A DNA stretch of 64,000 bases from Fervidobacterium sp. (lineage in GTDB: Bacteria; Thermotogota; Thermotogae; Thermotogales; Fervidobacteriaceae): the NCBI GenBank assembly GCA_026419195.1, contig JANZZV010000003.1, forward strand, positions 209,903-273,902. Direction: 5' to 3'. This document shows, one piece after another, positions 53,727 to 62,183 of the stretch. A program made the position numbers and the translations under genes. A model generated the notes under the pieces. The model worked only from the letters and a program-made list of their open reading frames with translations. It did no database searches and was not told the origin of the DNA. The number at the start of each line of letters is the position of its first letter. The first letter of the stretch is position 1.

Positions 53727-54806
53727 ATGAGTGAAAACATATTACCAATGCTCATAATCTTTTCTTATTCACTTGTACTCAATTCCATGGCTCCGCTTTT
53801 AAAATCCTTTAGAGAGCTGTTTAATATATCAACTGCATTGTCATCACTTCTTCCATTTTTCTCACTTTCTGGAACAGTTATATCGAACATATTTGTTGGT
53901 GTGTACATTAGTAAACTTGGGCTCAAGAGATCTCTTATCATAGGCAGTATACTAACCATAGTTGGTACCTTTGTAGTTGCGTTTGCTACTAATTACTCAT
54001 TAGCACTAATAGGAATTTTGATTTTCGGCCTTTCAACAGGATTTGGGTTCACAGGTGGAACTACTTTACTTACTCTCAGCAAAAATGCAAATTATGGTTT
54101 TTTTCACGGTGCTTATGGATTAGGAGGGATAATAGCACCATTTATAATAACAATAGCCGAAAAAACAACGAGCAATTTTAAAAACGTCTACTACATCTAC
54201 GCAGTTGGGTTTGCGTTTTTGTATATTTACCTCTTGTTTAGAAAAATACCTGAACTCAAAACAACAGAACCGTTTAATTTAAAACAAATTAAAAATGCTT
54301 TTAGAGATAGAAACTTCTCCTTGTTTCTAATATTACTCATCTTGTACTCTTCTGCGGAAATAGGTACAATAACATGGTCAGGTAGCACAATGAGAGAAAC
54401 TAACATAAGCCTGTTTATATCTTACACACTATTTTGGTTAACCTTTACACTGAGTAGATTTCTCGTAAATAATCTTTCTAATTTAGTGAAAAACCTTGTA
54501 AGATTGAATTCATTAATACTTTTATTTTTGGTAGTCATTTTTGTCATAACAAAAAACCCGGTATTTTTCAGTCTATCAGGTTTTTTCTTTGGTCCCATAT
54601 TTCCGTACGTACAAAATATAGCGATAAACTCAATAAATCGTACCTACACCAATCTGTTTAACGGCTCAACGTACGCATTTACTTCTCTTGGTGGAAACAT
54701 TGTGAGTACGTTGATGGGATTATTCTTAGACAAAAGTTTACTTTTATCGTGGAGTATTCCCGTAATTATCATATTTACAATATATTTCATCAGTAAAGAA
54801 CTATAA
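53727..54806 (+). CDS. MFS transporter
   Basis: A 359-residue transporter with about twelve hydrophobic helices and the major-facilitator loop after helix 2 (YISKLGLKRSLIIGS, about residue 62). Loop residues between helices 6 and 7 are basic. The family does not show the substrate. The ATG at 53727 is nine bases after AAAGGA; an ATG at 53718 abuts that site, and an in-frame ATG at 53694 lies inside the end of the activator gene, so the start is uncertain within 33 bases. It follows the sigma54 activator on the same strand and ends at a terminator. Confidence 0.75.
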   Translation: MSENILPMLIIFSYSLVLNSMAPLLKSFRELFNISTALSSLLPFFSLSGTVISNIFVGVYISKLGLKRSLIIGSILTIVGTFVVAFATNYSLALIGILIFGLSTGFGFTGGTTLLTLSKNANYGFFHGAYGLGGIIAPFIITIAEKTTSNFKNVYYIYAVGFAFLYIYLLFRKIPELKTTEPFNLKQIKNAFRDRNFSLFLILLILYSSAEIGTITWSGSTMRETNISLFISYTLFWLTFTLSRFLVNNLSNLVKNLVRLNSLILLFLVVIFVITKNPVFFSLSGFFFGPIFPYVQNIAINSINRTYTNLFNGSTYAFTSLGGNIVSTLMGLFLDKSLLLSWSIPVIIIFTIYFISKEL

Positions 54807-54840
54807 AAAGAAAACTCCCCAACAGGGAGTTTTCTTTTTA
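54805..54840. terminator. Bidirectional terminator between the MFS and lipoprotein genes
   Basis: AAAAAGAAAACTCCC-CAACA-GGGAGTTTTCTTTTT, symmetrical A and T tracts, between convergent units. Confidence 0.9.
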
Positions 54841-54841
54841 A

Positions 54842-55462
54842 TCACTTGAAATTGTTTATTTCTATGCGGCTAATTTCAGGTTTTGTAGAAGTTGGTATTT
54901 TCAGCTCTTCAACAATCTCGTCTTGACCAACTGGAGAAATTTTATTTTTGTCGGGTGGCACCACCGCTATAAGCCAGTTACCTGCGAGTACCATTTGATT
55001 GTTGTTCAATCGCATGTATGTAAATGTACTAAGTTTGTTTTTCAGCCATATTGAAACGTACGGTGTATTTTTGTAGCCGTAAACATACAGTCTCAAATAT
55101 CCATTTGAAGTTCTCAACAGTTGAATCCCTTTTTCCACTGAACGTTCCAATGTTATCGTAACTGACTTATTTGGTTCCACGAATATATCCTTGATTTTGA
55201 AAACGGACAAAGTTTCAGAAAAAACCACATTCACAGACGGTGATTCAATCTTTGCATTAATATAAACACCATTTTTGTCTGCTTTGATCACGTTGTCGTT
55301 TATGTTTCCTTCAATGAACAACTTATTTCCGTACGGATCAATTATGTTAACTTCGGTTCTGTAGTTAGATTCCGCTGGTTTGTTGTTATTACTGAAAGTA
55401 CCGCACGAAGAAACAAAAATAAAAACAAGCAAAATGGAGATAAAAGTAAACAGCTTTCTCAT
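54842..55462 (-). CDS. Putative lipoprotein of unknown function
   Basis: No family recognised. The 206-residue product has a signal peptide ending in the lipobox-like VSSCG, placing the lipidated cysteine at about residue 20, then a beta-rich region with no cysteine or catalytic motif. It begins 11 bases after the large propeller protein gene and shares its transcript. The three genes 59825-54842 encode exported proteins and may form one surface assembly. It ends at the bidirectional terminator at 54805. Confidence 0.7.
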   Translation of the reverse strand: MRKLFTFISILLVFIFVSSCGTFSNNNKPAESNYRTEVNIIDPYGNKLFIEGNINDNVIKADKNGVYINAKIESPSVNVVFSETLSVFKIKDIFVEPNKSVTITLERSVEKGIQLLRTSNGYLRLYVYGYKNTPYVSIWLKNKLSTFTYMRLNNNQMVLAGNWLIAVVPPDKNKISPVGQDEIVEELKIPTSTKPEISRIEINNFK

Positions 55463-55473
55463 AAGAACTCACC

Positions 55474-58182
55474 TCACTTTACTCTTTCACTTTCGGGTAC
55501 AGATATTCCAAACATACTGACAAAAATAAAGAAATCATCGTCGTTAACTTTCTTCGTTGTATCGCTTAAAAATCCTGCATTGAAGCTATTCAAAGATGGA
55601 TAAGGTGGTACAAACCCTTCTCTTGGTCCGATGTTGTAAACCAAGTTACCTTCGGAAACCTCTTGACCAAGGAATGGAGAAAACAATATCCAATCGTTTG
55701 CATCAACATCGTAATCACCATCAAAATCACCAGGAATATATAAAAATTTATTATTCTTGTAAACCGATTTTGCTTTTAGATTGTCCAGATCAACAAGCTG
55801 TCCTTGAATTTGAGAATAACCGTACAGCTCAAAAAACTGTCTGAACACAGAATCATCATTTCCATATAGCCGCGTTTTTTCAGGAAAGTAAAGATTCAAA
55901 GTTACCGTCGCTACTCTTGTTTTTTGAGCAAAAGGCAGAGCATAGTTTGAGAAAACATAATTTAACTCATTGTCCTTGACATAACTAAGAGCATCGACTA
56001 TTGAAACATTCGGTGCAGGGTTATTCTGACCTGTCAAATTAGCTTCTACGATTTTTACCCCACCTTTCGTTTTTAGTTGCAATTTATGTGCTATAGAATT
56101 AGGTGCGGCATCCAAGAAAAGGTATCCTTTGACATTTCCATAAGCAAATTCTGGTAACAGTAAAGTTATGGTAGCAGACAGCTCTGCATAGTAAATCTCT
56201 ATATAGTGAGGTCCGCTCAAAGGTAATGAAACAGAGTCTTTATCATAAACTGTGGATTTCGTGTAACCTCCAGGCACATCAGGATTCCATGAATATATAT
56301 CCCATCTATAAGCGTAAAATTTCTTACCTCCTTGATCAGTTTTCGAACTTATTATCATTTTCGCTTGTGCAGGATTGTTTCTGTAATCATTGTAATCGAA
56401 AATACCTATTTTGCTTTCTGTTGATTCACCTAAATTACCTGACAAAGGATATTTATGGTAAATGTAGTATCTGTATTTCGCATCAGTGTACACTTTAACC
56501 GTTCTGTCGTTGAATCTGTAAGTTAGCACAGCTGGATTATCGCTTTCTGATGGACCCTCGTAGGCATCAGGACCTGATTTATTCCAGAATCTGAACTTAA
56601 AGAGTGAATCGGTTGCTGGAGGAGTACCGCCCTTTACAACAGAGCTTTTAAATGTGCCTCTTAACAAAACTGCTAACTGGGTTCTTTTGCTAAAGGTTAC
56701 CCTAAGTTTTTGAGTACCTGGGATGCCGGCAACAACACGTGCAGGATCTGTAACATTAGTTCTGTAATCTTGAAATGATCCTGCAACACTGTTATCAGCG
56801 TTCAACAACGTTGCATCATATAAAAGACCGTAGTTTGTTTCATCACCGAGTATGTTACTTGAGAGAGGTCTTCCGTAAAATCCTTCAACAGCGTTTATGA
56901 ATATCCTTGTTCTAAATTGCATCGAAGCTGAATCGATAAAGTTGGTTCGATATGCATTTGCCCCATACATACCCCATATACCGTAAGGACCGCGTGCATC
57001 TGTTTTCCAAGCATAAATTGTACCATTGTTATCGGCAGATGCAAAGACATAATATTCTGTCCCCACAGCACCAAGTGGTGCAACTCCAACTGCGGCACTC
57101 ATTGGAAAAGACCTATTTGTGTTAAATTCAACAACTTTTTCCAATCTTCCGAGAGCTGAATCAAATGAAAGTACCGTAATCTTTCCAGAATATTCGCCAC
57201 CGGTAGATGGAACTACAATGTATGTCAGTCCATTACCTTTTTTCAATATAGCTGGAGTAGCTGTTATATTCTGCCCAATAGTATTTTCAGCAACTTTCGT
57301 TAAGCTGTTGTTCAAAACAACGACTTTTCCATTATCTCCAAACAGGTAAATAAAACCTTCTCCATCGATTAAAGGTCCGCAACTGTTTGCTGAATTTAAG
57401 TATTTTACATGTATTTCACTCCCAGAAGGATCGATCTTGTATAAGATTCCGTTTGCACTTAATGCGTACACAAAACCAGCTTCATCCATAGCCATTGGAA
57501 CGGCAAATTCTCCAGATATTGAAATTTTTAATGTTAGTGTTGCAAAGGTACTTGCATCGATTTCATAAAACTTACCGTTTGAAGTCATAACGTATAATCT
57601 AGACCTATCCGGTGTAAGTATTGGAGGAATTTTGATAGGTGAATCAACACTACGCTCTTTTGATTCAGTAGTAATTTCTGTGGGTTGTGAACCACTAACG
57701 TCATAAACAAGCTTATATATCTTACCTGAGAGCGTACCGAAAAACGCGTAAGCCTTATTATTTGTTTTATCTGAATAAGCAACAAGTCCTATGGAAGCAT
57801 TGTCTATATCTTTCGTAACTGAAGAATTAGCCTCAACTTTGTGAATCACGAACTTATTTTGCTGGTTTTGCGCTTGCGCAGTAACGTAAACTACGTAGTT
57901 GTTATTTGAGCCAAACTCTAAATACGCAGGTGGAGCGACTACATTAACTATTGCTGGAGCTTGTCCTCGGGCGGTCACCGCTCCTGTTGGTGTTATTTCA
58001 TACAGCTCTCCAAATTTTGATAAAAACAAAATATTACCACCGTTTTTTACTATTAACCCTGGTCCTTGTTTGCCTATCTGCTTAATGTATCCAGTTTCAG
58101 CCCACAGACCTTCGTAGTAGAATGAAAATATAACACTACTGAGAGCAAAACAAAAAATAACCAAAATGTTTGCAAACTTCAT
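55474..58182 (-). CDS. Exported beta-propeller protein with dockerin-like calcium motif
   Basis: A 902-residue protein with signal peptide (about residues 1-20). Residues about 25-420 hold PQQ/WD-like propeller blades with repeats such as FVYALSANGILYKID and FIYLFGDNGKVVVL. The middle 400 residues are beta-rich and not recognised. Near residues 815-840 lies GDFDGDYDVDANDWILF, a dockerin-type EF-hand calcium loop followed by a helix, and a weaker second copy with VNDDDFFIF near residue 880. Dockerin pairs usually dock to cohesin domains or fold structurally. The ATG at 58182 follows GGAGGG; a frame to 58197 begins within that site. It is between two lipoprotein-like genes. Confidence 0.75.
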   Translation of the reverse strand: MKFANILVIFCFALSSVIFSFYYEGLWAETGYIKQIGKQGPGLIVKNGGNILFLSKFGELYEITPTGAVTARGQAPAIVNVVAPPAYLEFGSNNNYVVYVTAQAQNQQNKFVIHKVEANSSVTKDIDNASIGLVAYSDKTNNKAYAFFGTLSGKIYKLVYDVSGSQPTEITTESKERSVDSPIKIPPILTPDRSRLYVMTSNGKFYEIDASTFATLTLKISISGEFAVPMAMDEAGFVYALSANGILYKIDPSGSEIHVKYLNSANSCGPLIDGEGFIYLFGDNGKVVVLNNSLTKVAENTIGQNITATPAILKKGNGLTYIVVPSTGGEYSGKITVLSFDSALGRLEKVVEFNTNRSFPMSAAVGVAPLGAVGTEYYVFASADNNGTIYAWKTDARGPYGIWGMYGANAYRTNFIDSASMQFRTRIFINAVEGFYGRPLSSNILGDETNYGLLYDATLLNADNSVAGSFQDYRTNVTDPARVVAGIPGTQKLRVTFSKRTQLAVLLRGTFKSSVVKGGTPPATDSLFKFRFWNKSGPDAYEGPSESDNPAVLTYRFNDRTVKVYTDAKYRYYIYHKYPLSGNLGESTESKIGIFDYNDYRNNPAQAKMIISSKTDQGGKKFYAYRWDIYSWNPDVPGGYTKSTVYDKDSVSLPLSGPHYIEIYYAELSATITLLLPEFAYGNVKGYLFLDAAPNSIAHKLQLKTKGGVKIVEANLTGQNNPAPNVSIVDALSYVKDNELNYVFSNYALPFAQKTRVATVTLNLYFPEKTRLYGNDDSVFRQFFELYGYSQIQGQLVDLDNLKAKSVYKNNKFLYIPGDFDGDYDVDANDWILFSPFLGQEVSEGNLVYNIGPREGFVPPYPSLNSFNAGFLSDTTKKVNDDDFFIFVSMFGISVPESERVK

Positions 58183-58262: not shown

Positions 58263-59825
58263 TTACTGAACGTAAATTAGAAATCTTCCAATGTCTCGCA
58301 TTAGATTTCCACTTTTATCGGCAACATTCATAATAGATAGGTAATAGTATCCAACAGCAACATATGTTGAAACAGCAAATGTTACCTTTCTAAGATCACT
58401 TGAGACTTCAAAAACCTCCATAACAAGGTCTCTGTAAAATCCTTCGCTTTCATCTTCTTTAATAAGCAACCTTGGTTTTGTCGTTAAGCTTATTCCGCCA
58501 GGATCCTCAACTGTTAACTTAAATGTTATGAGCCCCGGTGAAACAAAATTATCCTGACCAAGTTTTAATTCAACATTATTAGCGTACAAGGAGACAAACT
58601 TTGGTCCATTGTAATCTCTTACAGCGATCGTAGTTTCAGCGATGCCTGCTCTCCCGTCCTCAGATTCCGCATAAATTGTTATGTAATGTTCACCCTCCTC
58701 CACTTCCCAGAGAGTGAACAATTGAGGATTTTTAACATTTTCATTTGGGTATTCAGCAATTCTTTTCCCATCCACAAGATATATTATCTTAGAATATTTT
58801 ACATCCTTTTCCTCAGGTATCATAGCTATCACAGCAGTGCGACCGGCAGTTAGCTCACTAGGACTCAGCTCTACCTTGAACCTTAACGCTGTTCCACCGA
58901 CGTATATTCTTTTTGCAAAGGTGTACATATTTCCTTCTTTATCATAAGCTACAACGTTTATCGCATGAGTTCCTGTATCTTTTTTACCTATGGAGATTTC
59001 TTCCGTATAAATGGTACCACTTATATTTCTTTCAACAACAGCCTCACCATCAAAGGTTAGTCTAAATTTAGAAAGCTCAACATTATCTCTCAAAGTAACC
59101 CTGAGTGTTATATTTGATTCTGGGGAATAAAAAGTATCAGCTGATACTGTTATTTCAGGTGGAATTTTATCATTCTGGTTTACCCGAAGAACTAAGGTAG
59201 TTGAATCTTGCGTATCGTATGCTTTCGTTCTTACAAACAACTGGATTAAACCACTTTTTTGAATTTTTCCAAGCCTAATAAAATTGTAACCAGGAGAAAC
59301 TTGAATATTAGTCGTGTTTGACGAATCAACTAATAGACCATTTGCAGTCAGATCTATCTTTGGATTGCTACTTCCAATTTTTAGCTGTAATAATACTTCA
59401 TCACCTTCGTACAACTTATTTGGTATAACACTTATTTTCTCTATATAAGGTGGTAAAGAATCATAAACAACAATTTGTTTTTGATCTACATAAGTTTTGC
59501 CATCAACAACAGAAAATCCTTTGGCTTCCAATTTATAAATTCCTGGTTTTTCTGGTTTCCAACTAAACTTGTAAGGATAAGATTTCAACAATTCTGTGAT
59601 CTTTGTATCACTACTTTCTATACTCAAAAATATCTTTGGAATACCAGGTTCAAGTGTTTCAATCATCATATCAATAGTTTTCCCAACTTTTCCAACTTGA
59701 CTCACTTTGATGTCCAGAGCTTTGAAAGGTTTGCTAAGTTCTGCTGATTTCATACAGCTTTGGAGCACTACAATCGAAATAACTGCCAAAACAAAAACTC
59801 CAACTGAAATTGCAAATCTTCCCAC
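58263..59825 (-). CDS. Lipoprotein with repeated Ig-like domains
   Basis: A 520-residue exported protein. The N-terminal helix ends in VVLQSC, a fair lipobox, so it is probably lipid-anchored. The rest is a chain of about five beta-sandwich segments with the recurring pattern of proline, DNVE-type loop and aromatic strands (for example PPEITVSADTFY and KFVSLYANNVEL), like bacterial Ig-like or cadherin-type modules. It starts at GTG 59825, five bases after GGGGAGTGA; an in-frame TTG at 59840 overlaps that site. The propeller gene follows 80 bases later on the same strand. Adhesion or toga structure is plausible but not shown. Confidence 0.72.
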   Translation of the reverse strand: MGRFAISVGVFVLAVISIVVLQSCMKSAELSKPFKALDIKVSQVGKVGKTIDMMIETLEPGIPKIFLSIESSDTKITELLKSYPYKFSWKPEKPGIYKLEAKGFSVVDGKTYVDQKQIVVYDSLPPYIEKISVIPNKLYEGDEVLLQLKIGSSNPKIDLTANGLLVDSSNTTNIQVSPGYNFIRLGKIQKSGLIQLFVRTKAYDTQDSTTLVLRVNQNDKIPPEITVSADTFYSPESNITLRVTLRDNVELSKFRLTFDGEAVVERNISGTIYTEEISIGKKDTGTHAINVVAYDKEGNMYTFAKRIYVGGTALRFKVELSPSELTAGRTAVIAMIPEEKDVKYSKIIYLVDGKRIAEYPNENVKNPQLFTLWEVEEGEHYITIYAESEDGRAGIAETTIAVRDYNGPKFVSLYANNVELKLGQDNFVSPGLITFKLTVEDPGGISLTTKPRLLIKEDESEGFYRDLVMEVFEVSSDLRKVTFAVSTYVAVGYYYLSIMNVADKSGNLMRDIGRFLIYVQ

Positions 59826-59899
59826 TTTCTCACTCCCCAAAATACTTCAGTTTTCATATGGATTATTCTTCGTTTTTCGTTTTATCTCCTAAATCCAAC

Positions 59900-59944: not shown

Positions 59945-60020
59945 GGGGCCGTAGCTCAGGTGGGAGAGCGCTACCATGGCACGGTAGAGGTCGTGGGTTC
60001 AAGTCCCATCGGCTCCACCA
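59945..60020 (+). tRNA. tRNA-Ala (GGC anticodon)
   Basis: The 76-base cloverleaf has acceptor arms GGGGCCG and CGGCTCC, D-arm with GTAGCTCAGGTGGGAGAGC, anticodon stem CTACC/GGTAG with loop ATGGCAC (anticodon GGC, reading GCC and GCU alanine codons), T-arm with GTTCAAGTC and an encoded CCA end. The third acceptor pair is G-U. Confidence 0.96.
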
Positions 60021-60563: not shown

Positions 60564-62183
60564 ATGGCAAAGTTGTTGAGATACAGTGAAGAAGCAAGAA
60601 GGTCTCTTGAATCAGGTGTTGACGCAGTTGCTAATGCTGTTAAGATAACACTTGGTCCAAAAGGGAGAAATGTTGTTATCGAAAAATCTTGGGGTAGTCC
60701 GACTATTACAAACGATGGTGTTTCTATTGCAAAAGAAATCGAACTTGAAGACAAATTCGCAAATTTAGGTGCTCAGCTTGTAAAAGAGGTTGCAAGTAAG
60801 ACAAACGATGTTGCGGGTGACGGTACAACAACAGCAACAGTACTTGCACAAGCAATGATTAAAGAAGGACTAAAAATGGTAGCAGCAGGTGCAAATCCAA
60901 TACTTGTGAAAAGAGGTATTGATAAAGCTACAGCCAAGGTTGTCGAAGAGATTAAGAAGATTTCTAAGAAACTTTCAAGCACTGAAGATATTGCTCATGT
61001 TGCAGCAATCAGTGCAAACAGCGAGGAAATAGGTAAGCTTATTGCGGAAGCAATGGAAAAAGTTGGAGAAGACGGTGTTATTACAGTTGAAGACAGCAAA
61101 ACGATCGATACTTATGTCGAATTTACAGAAGGTATGCAATTTGATAGGGGTTACATATCGCCATACTTTGTAACAGATCCAGAAAAAATGGAAGTTGTTT
61201 ACAACGAACCATTCATACTTATAACCGACAGAAAGCTTTCGAATGTCAAGCCTCTCATTCCAATTCTTGAGAAAGTTGCTCAAACTGGCAGACCACTCGT
61301 AATTATTGCAGAAGACGTTGAAGGTGAAATGCTTACAACGCTTGTTCTTAACAAACTTAAAGGTACGCTCAACACAGTTGCAGTAAAAGCTCCTGGTTTT
61401 GGTGATAGAAGGAAGGCAATGCTACAAGATATCGCTATCTTAACAGGCGGTATCGTTGCAAGTGAAGAAGTCGGAATTAATCTTGAAGATCTGACATTGC
61501 AAGATCTTGGAAAAGCAGACGTTGTAAGGGTTAAAAAAGACGAAACGATAATCGTAGGTGGTAAAGGTAAACCAGAAGAAATCAAAAAGAGAATTGCTCA
61601 AATCAAAGCTCAGATAGAGCAAACAACAAGTGAGTACGAAAAAGAAACACTCCAAGAGAGAATGGCAAAACTTGCTGGTGGTGTTGCAGTAATTAAAGTT
61701 GGTGCCGCAACAGAAACAGAACTTAAAGAAAAGAAGCACAGAATCGAGGATGCTCTTAGCGCTACTAGGGCAGCAGTCGAAGAAGGTATAGTTCCTGGCG
61801 GAGGAATTACGTTGTTAAGAGCAAGAAAAGTTCTCGAACCACTCCTTGGTGAGCTCACTGGTGATGAAAAACTTGGTGCACAAATTGTTTACAATGCACT
61901 CGAAGCACCTATCAAACAAATTGCTACTAACGCAGGTTACGATGGTGCAATTATTGTACACAATGTGCTTTCAAAAGACGAAGTTGCCTATGGATTTGAT
62001 GCATTGAAAGGTGAATACTGCAACATGTATGAACGTGGTATAATTGACCCGGCAAAGGTCACAAGAAGTGCTCTCCAAAATGCCGCATCAATCGCAGGTA
62101 TGTTGTTGACAACCGAAGTTCTTGTTGTTGAAAAACCTGAAGAGAAAAAGGGTGCATCAACTCCTGAAATGCCAGAATATTAA
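60564..62183 (+). CDS. groL: Chaperonin GroEL
   Basis: The 539-residue chaperonin folds proteins in an ATP-driven cycle with GroES. Conserved parts include the ATP-site [12 protein letters not shown] and [16 protein letters not shown], the equatorial [12 protein letters not shown] and the C-terminal [12 protein letters not shown]. The C-terminus ends PEMPEY without the common GGM repeats, as in several thermophiles. GGAGGAGG precedes the ATG. A strong terminator follows. Confidence 0.97.

Follow-up and report, generated by a model that had tools for sequence, protein, structure and literature searches.

The window, a stretch of 64,000 nucleotides of Fervidobacterium DNA, contains a gene, P0001, for a beta-propeller protein whose C-terminal end is a dockerin-like module, and it is the identity and the probable partner of this module that concern us here. 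Relatives of the module occur across the Thermotogota, where they usually lie beside a protein that ends in a cohesin, and by its sequence the window's copy is a variant dockerin. We propose, tentatively and with rather less than even confidence, that this dockerin-like plug fastens the propeller to the cell envelope by seating it on a lipoprotein from the same gene cassette, most likely the 206-residue P0003. Loci (L) and genomes (G) are cited below by number.

The dockerin-like module and the protein that carries it

The gene lies exactly where the initial annotation had placed it, on the minus strand at 55474-58182; it starts with an ATG at 58182 behind the ribosome site GGAGGG, stops at 55474-55476 and encodes 902 residues. 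Its N-terminus is a signal-peptide-like stretch that has no lipobox cysteine, and from these motifs alone P0001 is predicted to be exported and non-lipidated. No viral relatives were found. The propeller matched a designed propeller best among PDB sequences (E 7.7e-19), together with natural propellers, and the AlphaFold2 (AF2) model of residues 30-395 matched YxaL with a Z of 32.9 and BamB with a Z of about 30-31, in agreement with the propeller blades that had been read from the sequence. The long beta-rich middle described at the same time is likewise beta-rich in the AF2 model (residues 425-667), where the predicted local distance difference test (pLDDT) is mostly 50-80 and drops below 50 over 441-450 and 500-550; this region gave no Pfam match up to E 1. 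The full-length AF2 model serves for the propeller and for parts of the middle only.

The calcium loop that had first drawn attention to the C-terminus, GDFDGDYDVDANDWILF, is present at residues 818-834, and the 12 residues of loop 1, DFDGDYDVDAND, have all the ligand positions that a dockerin loop uses for calcium (1, 3, 5, 9 and 12), conforming to the dockerin pattern of D or N at 1, 3, 5 and 9 and D at 12. In the window copy and 14 orthologues (the truncated L010 was left out) each of these positions is occupied by D or N without exception (15 of 15): D is found at positions 1 and 12 in all 15, and the ratio of D to N is 8/7 at position 3, 12/3 at position 5 and 13/2 at position 9. The ligands are kept although orthologues from other genera share only 29-32 percent identity with the window protein. 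The second, weaker loop that had been suggested is real, but it is split. It opens with a YNIGPR/YDIGPR-like box, which an insertion separates from a second half with [ND]-x-x-D at its end; in the window the loop reads N850-I-G-P-R, 19 residues, D874-TTKKVNDDD883, with N replacing D at the first ligand. The same plan recurs throughout the phylum in the alignment behind A7, a 20-row profile of the module with 83 profile positions: LLGDFxxDGxVDxxDF, YDIGP, a variable insert and PDGxIDxxDF.

When A7 was compared with the PDB, dockerins came out on top, namely 2y3n_B (E 2.1e-8 for the whole sequence, 4.6e-4 for the best single stretch) and 2b59_B (E 6.6e-5), establishing sequence homology to solved dockerins. 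There were 25 matches up to E 0.1, some of which bear the name of their enzyme rather than that of the dockerin, and at least two are other EF-hand proteins, 7pjd_A and 1b8c_A (parvalbumin). A2, a profile built from eight rows of the family to which the window protein belongs, gave E 8.4e-4 against the PDB, and hhalign aligned the C-terminus of this family with Thermotogota cohesin-dockerin tandems at a probability of 99 (E 3.7e-18).

The Pfam model Dockerin_1 (PF00404) did not match the window protein up to E 1, which counts against a dockerin identity, and it matched only 2 of the 15 orthologues, with a best E of 0.093 and below the gathering score. Relatives of the module that end C1 peptidases do pass its cut-off of 22.9 bits in three of five such loci scanned together (L086, 29.4 bits; L094, 30.4; L101, 33.2); L084 and L093, from a separate scan, fall just under it. 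Another Dockerin_1 site in the window's genome was dismissed: it scores 15.2 bits, below the cut-off, in an unrelated open reading frame (ORF). Judged by its sequence, the module is a dockerin variant, or dockerin-like, and not a canonical type I or type II dockerin; we file it so because a contiguous second calcium loop was looked for and an interrupted one was found.

Pairing with cohesins and lipoproteins across the Thermotogota

A search of 103 Thermotogota genomes with A7 gave 69 dockerin matches in 49 genomes, and Pfam Cohesin (PF00963) gave 19 matches in 13 genomes. Of these 19 cohesins, 15 lie within 3 kb of an A7 match on the same strand. As to the remaining four, one is 1.5 kb from a dockerin match of another scan, another (L103) stands before a C1 peptidase with a tail that A7 missed, the third has a dockerin 2.3 kb off on the opposite strand, and the contig of the fourth shows no dockerin. 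With our own cohesin profile A8, whose PDB matches up to E 0.01 are all scaffoldin or cohesin proteins (13, best 3.2e-8), there were 58 matches in 23 genomes, 22 of which also have A7 matches, and 55 of the 58 are within 3 kb of a dockerin match on the same strand; this closeness follows in part from seeds taken in dockerin neighbourhoods, while the Pfam count is free of such bias on the cohesin side. Among 34 loci picked by their dockerin alone, the product of an adjacent gene ends in a cohesin in 23, these free cohesins ending neighbouring proteins that are mostly lipoproteins. The other 11 are six propeller cassettes, two M6 peptidase loci, L070, L079 and L080. The 34 loci include pairs from the same genome and are not independent; L100-L106, fetched for their cohesin matches, were left out, as was L090, a weak earlier match that is absent with A7, and no signal type is assigned to L068 and L079, which begin at contig ends.

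The module is not confined to propellers. It forms the C-terminal end of an M6 peptidase in G049 (L067; PF05547, 6.2e-26) and ends a fragment resembling an M6 peptidase in G059 (L068), the fragment itself having no Pfam match; in both loci the next gene overlaps it by 1 base and encodes a lipoprotein of 208-209 residues. Seven C1 peptidases also have a similar module as their tail (L084 and L093, by PF00112; L086, L089, L094, L101 and L103), one of which (L093, G015) belongs to the window's own family. All seven have a lipoprotein with a cohesin-like C-terminus directly upstream. By Pfam, with a cut-off of 24.1 bits, this cohesin scores 33.9 bits in G064 (L101), above the cut-off, 23.1 in G091 (L103), and 20.5 and 23.3 in two scans of L093; a profile built from these three sequences finds the others in L084 (1.4e-12), L094 (8.6e-9), L086 (4.5e-8) and L089 (3.6e-4). 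In L101 both partners, dockerin and cohesin, are above their Pfam cut-offs. The pair, a cohesin-ending lipoprotein and then a C1 peptidase with its C-terminal dockerin, spans 4319-7113 of L093, 63-2968 of L101 and 5458-8297 of L103. In the loci examined, every non-lipidated dockerin protein with a visible start (propeller cassette, M6, C1) adjoins a lipoprotein.

Other layouts were seen as well. L071, L072 and L085 hold a propeller-dockerin lipoprotein of a different layout, with an internal dockerin (PF13570, 216-244 bits), whose gene overlaps by 1 base that of a cohesin-ending lipoprotein. In L076 and L096 three adjacent genes encode, in order, a protein with a cohesin at its end, one with a dockerin near its start and a cohesin at its end, and one with a dockerin near its start; adjacent lipoprotein genes of this kind, with the dockerin close to the start and the cohesin at the very end, are seen in L092 as well, the middle protein there appearing as two ORFs. 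By their domain order these three loci look like a colinear daisy chain. In L073 (G056:C1:926000-945900) a gene for a protein with a C-terminal cohesin is followed by two for long proteins (2913 and 1120 residues) in which cohesin and dockerin abut, an in-chain cohesin at 134-276 standing directly before a dockerin at 277-359.

The gene cassette and the candidate receptors

In the window the cassette runs from the Ig-like lipoprotein P0002 through P0001 and, after 11 bases, the lipoprotein P0003 to a hairpin. Across 16 propeller loci, the window included, an upstream ORF of the P0002 kind is found in 15 and a downstream lipoprotein in 15 (L007 has no upstream ORF passing the filter, and L010 ends at a contig end). 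The upstream ORF is cut by the end of the locus in many of the 15; the gene is complete in L032-L035, and complete and lipobox-bearing in L097-L099. Big_7 matches P0002 at 21.1 bits, below its cut-off of 24.1. With the window sequence as query, P0003 was found in 15 of the 103 genomes, and these are exactly the 15 genomes of the window's family that have the dockerin-like module. The four genomes of genus g3 are without both, and G002 shows the propeller only, cut off by a contig end. This gene order is repeated at L065, L069 and L066, which represent three genomes from two further families and whose upstream proteins match the upstream profile at 2.3e-55, 1.9e-55 and 2.2e-88 and whose downstream proteins match the downstream profile, signal peptide included, at 1.2e-5, 1.4e-5 and 0.0011, respectively. 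All 16 downstream lipoproteins that were aligned, two of them beside an M6 gene, keep the lipobox cysteine, and the motifs predict lipid anchors for both P0002 and P0003. Terminator-like sites are no more frequent in the region than in shuffles (3 found, 2.8 expected), and among the three the hairpin at the end of the cassette stands out by its stem, which is much the longest.

The initial annotation had suggested that the genome be searched for cohesin-like domains. In the genome from which the window comes (97.66 percent complete, with 118 contigs that total 2.06 Mb) three profiles, PF00963, A8 and A9, returned none. A cellulosome was rejected on this account, as these profiles found no cohesin-bearing scaffoldin there, and no profile similarity spoke for a hidden cohesin in P0003 or in the C-terminus of P0002. 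Since the genome shows no cohesin, P0003, P0002 and the beta-sandwich that precedes the dockerin in P0001 are left as candidate receptors. Docking to a lipidated neighbour appears likely by analogy, because elsewhere in the phylum the module pairs with neighbouring cohesins, most of them on lipoproteins. The earlier suggestion of calcium-dependent docking to a toga or surface partner, with the two adjacent lipoproteins as candidates, is partly supported: this analogy speaks for a lipoprotein neighbour and both neighbours are conserved in the cassette, but neither is recognisably a cohesin in profile comparisons.

In the mechanism that we favour, P0001 would be exported by its signal peptide and would not itself be lipidated. 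The module at its C-terminus would be a dockerin-type plug, probably folded around calcium in view of the conserved ligands, and this plug would hold the propeller on the cell envelope through a lipidated partner from the same cassette. The most likely partner would be P0003, as an unrecognised receptor standing in for a cohesin, and the pre-dockerin sandwich, possibly of cohesin fold, would buttress the dockerin or accept another one. A role of the docked propeller as a binding platform on the envelope would fit its fold, and we claim nothing more for it. Calcium binding, the partner and the envelope location of P0001 are thus put forward conditionally, and we infer docking itself from homology together with the gene pairs seen elsewhere.

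P0003 is favoured by its constant presence in the cassette and by a P0003-like protein beside the M6 peptidase. When 409 sequences freed of their signal peptides were searched with a profile of the propeller-side lipoprotein, the first match outside propeller cassettes was that of L067 (G049; 18.1 bits, E 7.7e-5), and that of L068 (G059) ranked lower, after three rows of a propeller, with 11.6 bits (E 0.0079); the matches in L065, L066 and L069 are rows that built the profile and are not counted as evidence.

Several observations weigh against this proposal. P0003 is unlike cohesins by profile and has no recognisable fold: hhalign gave 0.4 and 1.5 percent for P0003 against cohesins, compared with 52 percent when C1-type cohesins served as positive control. 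Identity between P0003 and the M6-side lipoproteins is only 13-14 percent, and constant neighbours may share a pathway without touching. On the side of the dockerin, the second loop is, by its sequence, non-canonical, the insertion lying inside it where a contiguous loop would be expected. The PDB matches span mainly the first half of the module (the best, profile positions 2-39 of 83), so that loop 1 and its helix are firmly homologous and the second half depends on the internal logic of the module. Finally, the pLDDT is below 50 over residues 807-902 of the full-length AF2 model and over 769-902 of a C-terminal crop built from 4 rows; as both models are poor here, the case for the fold of the module is one of sequence, and the fold of loop 1 is not to be judged from the model.

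The lack of any other cohesin in the window's genome would also be explained if the dockerin plugged into the sandwich at residues 668-800 of the same protein, folding back on it or joining propellers head to tail in chains. In other Thermotogota a true cohesin does abut a homologous dockerin in one chain (A5; 5 of 5 match PF00963 up to E 1, best 3.1e-6), and in a Foldseek search with a model of the pre-dockerin region the top 8 of 350,542 chains, which belong to 5 PDB entries, were all cohesins or scaffoldin chains that bear cohesins. However, the best Foldseek E was only 0.038, on a poor, low-confidence model, and with VIA the sandwich reached a Z of about 5, cohesins being tied with pilins and other unrelated sandwiches and not singled out. 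None of 12 members matched PF00963, hhalign against Thermotogota cohesins gave 2.5 percent or less, and a PDB search with the pre-dockerin profile returned annexins and EF-Tu at E 0.19 or worse. A profile of sandwich and dockerin in tandem scored 126.3, above all 100 column-shuffled controls (mean 121.1, standard deviation 0.9, maximum 125.9), a lenient control in that column shuffling also destroys strand patterns; the sandwich alone scored 14.5, which 7 of 100 shuffles reached (mean 15.4, standard deviation 24.3, with outliers), and only the dockerin-anchored alignment beat its shuffles. Moreover, at 10 of the 12 loci with an in-chain cohesin-dockerin tandem an adjacent gene supplies a free cohesin, so the in-chain cohesin is not needed there. 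A cohesin-like fold of the sandwich is plausible but unproven, and we judge it unlikely that this sandwich receives the dockerin.

The empty cohesin search would also fit a module that has no docking partner and simply caps the C-terminus, stabilised by calcium, with the neighbours working with the propeller in some other way. Cohesin and dockerin domains do occur in organisms not linked to cellulose, where, according to passages of PMC9012536, presence alone leaves their meaning unclear. Two observations fit an exchangeable docking tag better than a cap, which we consider improbable: in other members of the phylum the homologous module and cohesins are paired genetically, and the tail reappears on proteins that are unrelated to one another (propeller, M6 and C1). 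More improbable still, in our view, is that the dockerin binds P0002 and that this upstream Ig-like lipoprotein is the anchor: in L065, L066 and L069, as in the window's family, a relative of P0002 precedes the propeller gene, and in the C1-peptidase pairs it is the upstream lipoprotein that bears the cohesin, but the C-terminal domain of P0002 is unlike a cohesin (hhalign 0.3 percent), and L067 has no P0002-like ORF in the 717 bases between its M6 gene and the contig end.

Docking on P0003 may also be set in a broader picture, which we find doubtful as a whole. The cohesin-dockerin plugs of the Thermotogota would be a general assembly code of the envelope, with gene order mirroring assembly order: behind each cohesin-ending protein would come a dockerin protein that may have a terminal cohesin of its own (as in the daisy chain of L076 and L096). 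In Fervidobacterium and its relatives the cohesin would have been replaced by a new and unrelated small lipoprotein receptor or moved in-chain, with propellers polymerising head to tail.

Relation to known systems and neighbouring features

We class the P0001 system as a variant of noncellulosomal cohesin-dockerin docking. Cellulosomal dockerins (PF00404; 2y3n_B, 2b59_B) are alike in loop 1, with all its ligands, and in the helix that follows, whereas the loop 2 of the window type is interrupted (YDIGP, insert, DGKIDxxD) and its module sits on a propeller rather than a glycoside hydrolase and has no Pfam call. Passages of PMC9012536 indicate that cohesin and dockerin modules outside cellulosomes are already known, and that in anaerobic methanotrophic (ANME) archaea dockerins are likewise found on non-cellulolytic envelope proteins such as substrate-binding and S-layer proteins; some ANME proteins are described there with several cohesins, whereas the window's genome showed none. 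The noncellulosomal pair of Archaeoglobus fulgidus comes likewise from a heat-lover, a hyperthermophile, but is archaeal, unlike the bacterial module of the window, and has been used to attach proteins to the surface of E. coli (in the part of PMC9705933 that deals with it). Comparable to the C1 peptidases of the Thermotogota is RflaF_05439 of Ruminococcus flavefaciens, which, in the relevant passages of PMC3573020, combines cysteine-peptidase-like modules with a C-terminal X-dockerin dyad and, as here, has a domain directly before the dockerin; it differs in being cellulosomal, of the NlpC/P60 type and from another phylum.

BamB and YxaL have the propeller fold in common with P0001, but BamB is a lipoprotein of the BAM complex and P0001 has no lipobox and ends in a dockerin-like module. 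Orthology with BamB was rejected by the missing lipobox and by score (TIGR03300, 12.4 bits against a cut-off of 285.2).

Thermotogota wear a toga. The word dockerin is absent from the main texts of PMC3387000, on the toga, and PMC11673897, a comparison of Fervidobacterium, and among the matches listed for open-access PMC literature no paper was recognisably on Thermotogota dockerins, which is not proof of absence. What we take to be new is the splitting of the second loop, the cassette around the propeller, the swaps to proteases and, in Thermotogota, the arrangement in gene pairs. Docking would probably serve attachment to the envelope rather than digestion of cellulose. If true, this would carry cohesin-dockerin docking beyond cellulosomes and into the envelope of a phylum that is largely thermophilic, the orphan dockerin of a cohesin-free genome would have a testable reason, and heat-stable docking pairs would have a new source; thermostable components for designer cellulosomes are described, in a passage of PMC6394049, as restricted to Archaeoglobus fulgidus and selected thermophilic clostridia.

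Table 1. Features of the propeller-dockerin cassette, in window coordinates
Feature	Position	Strand	Basis
Gene of the 902-residue propeller-dockerin protein P0001, predicted to be exported	55474..58182	-	ORF, translation, orthologues
Beta-propeller, PQQ/BamB-like type, residues 30-395	56998..58095	-	sequence matches and AF2 model
Beta-rich middle region, residues 425-667, no family assigned	56182..56910	-	AF2 model
Pre-dockerin beta-sandwich, residues 668-800, possibly cohesin-like	55783..56181	-	Foldseek, VIA, tandem profile
Dockerin-like module, residues 815-894	55501..55740	-	alignments and A7 profile
Predicted calcium loop 1, DFDGDYDVDAND, residues 819-830	55693..55728	-	ligand positions kept in 15/15
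Predicted calcium loop 2, insertion-split, N850-IGPR ... D874-TTKKVNDDD883	55534..55635	-	alignments A2 and A7
Predicted 525-residue lipoprotein with Ig-like domains (P0002), upstream	58263..59840	-	Big_7 below cut-off; upstream relatives
Predicted 206-residue lipoprotein (P0003), downstream, favoured receptor	54842..55462	-	conserved cassette member
Terminator-like hairpin, 17-pair stem, after the cassette	54804..54840	-	hairpin scan

Beyond P0002, a tRNA-Ala (GGC) lies on the plus strand at 59945-60020 of the window, between the cassette and a GroEL-like gene, named by eye, at 60564-62183.

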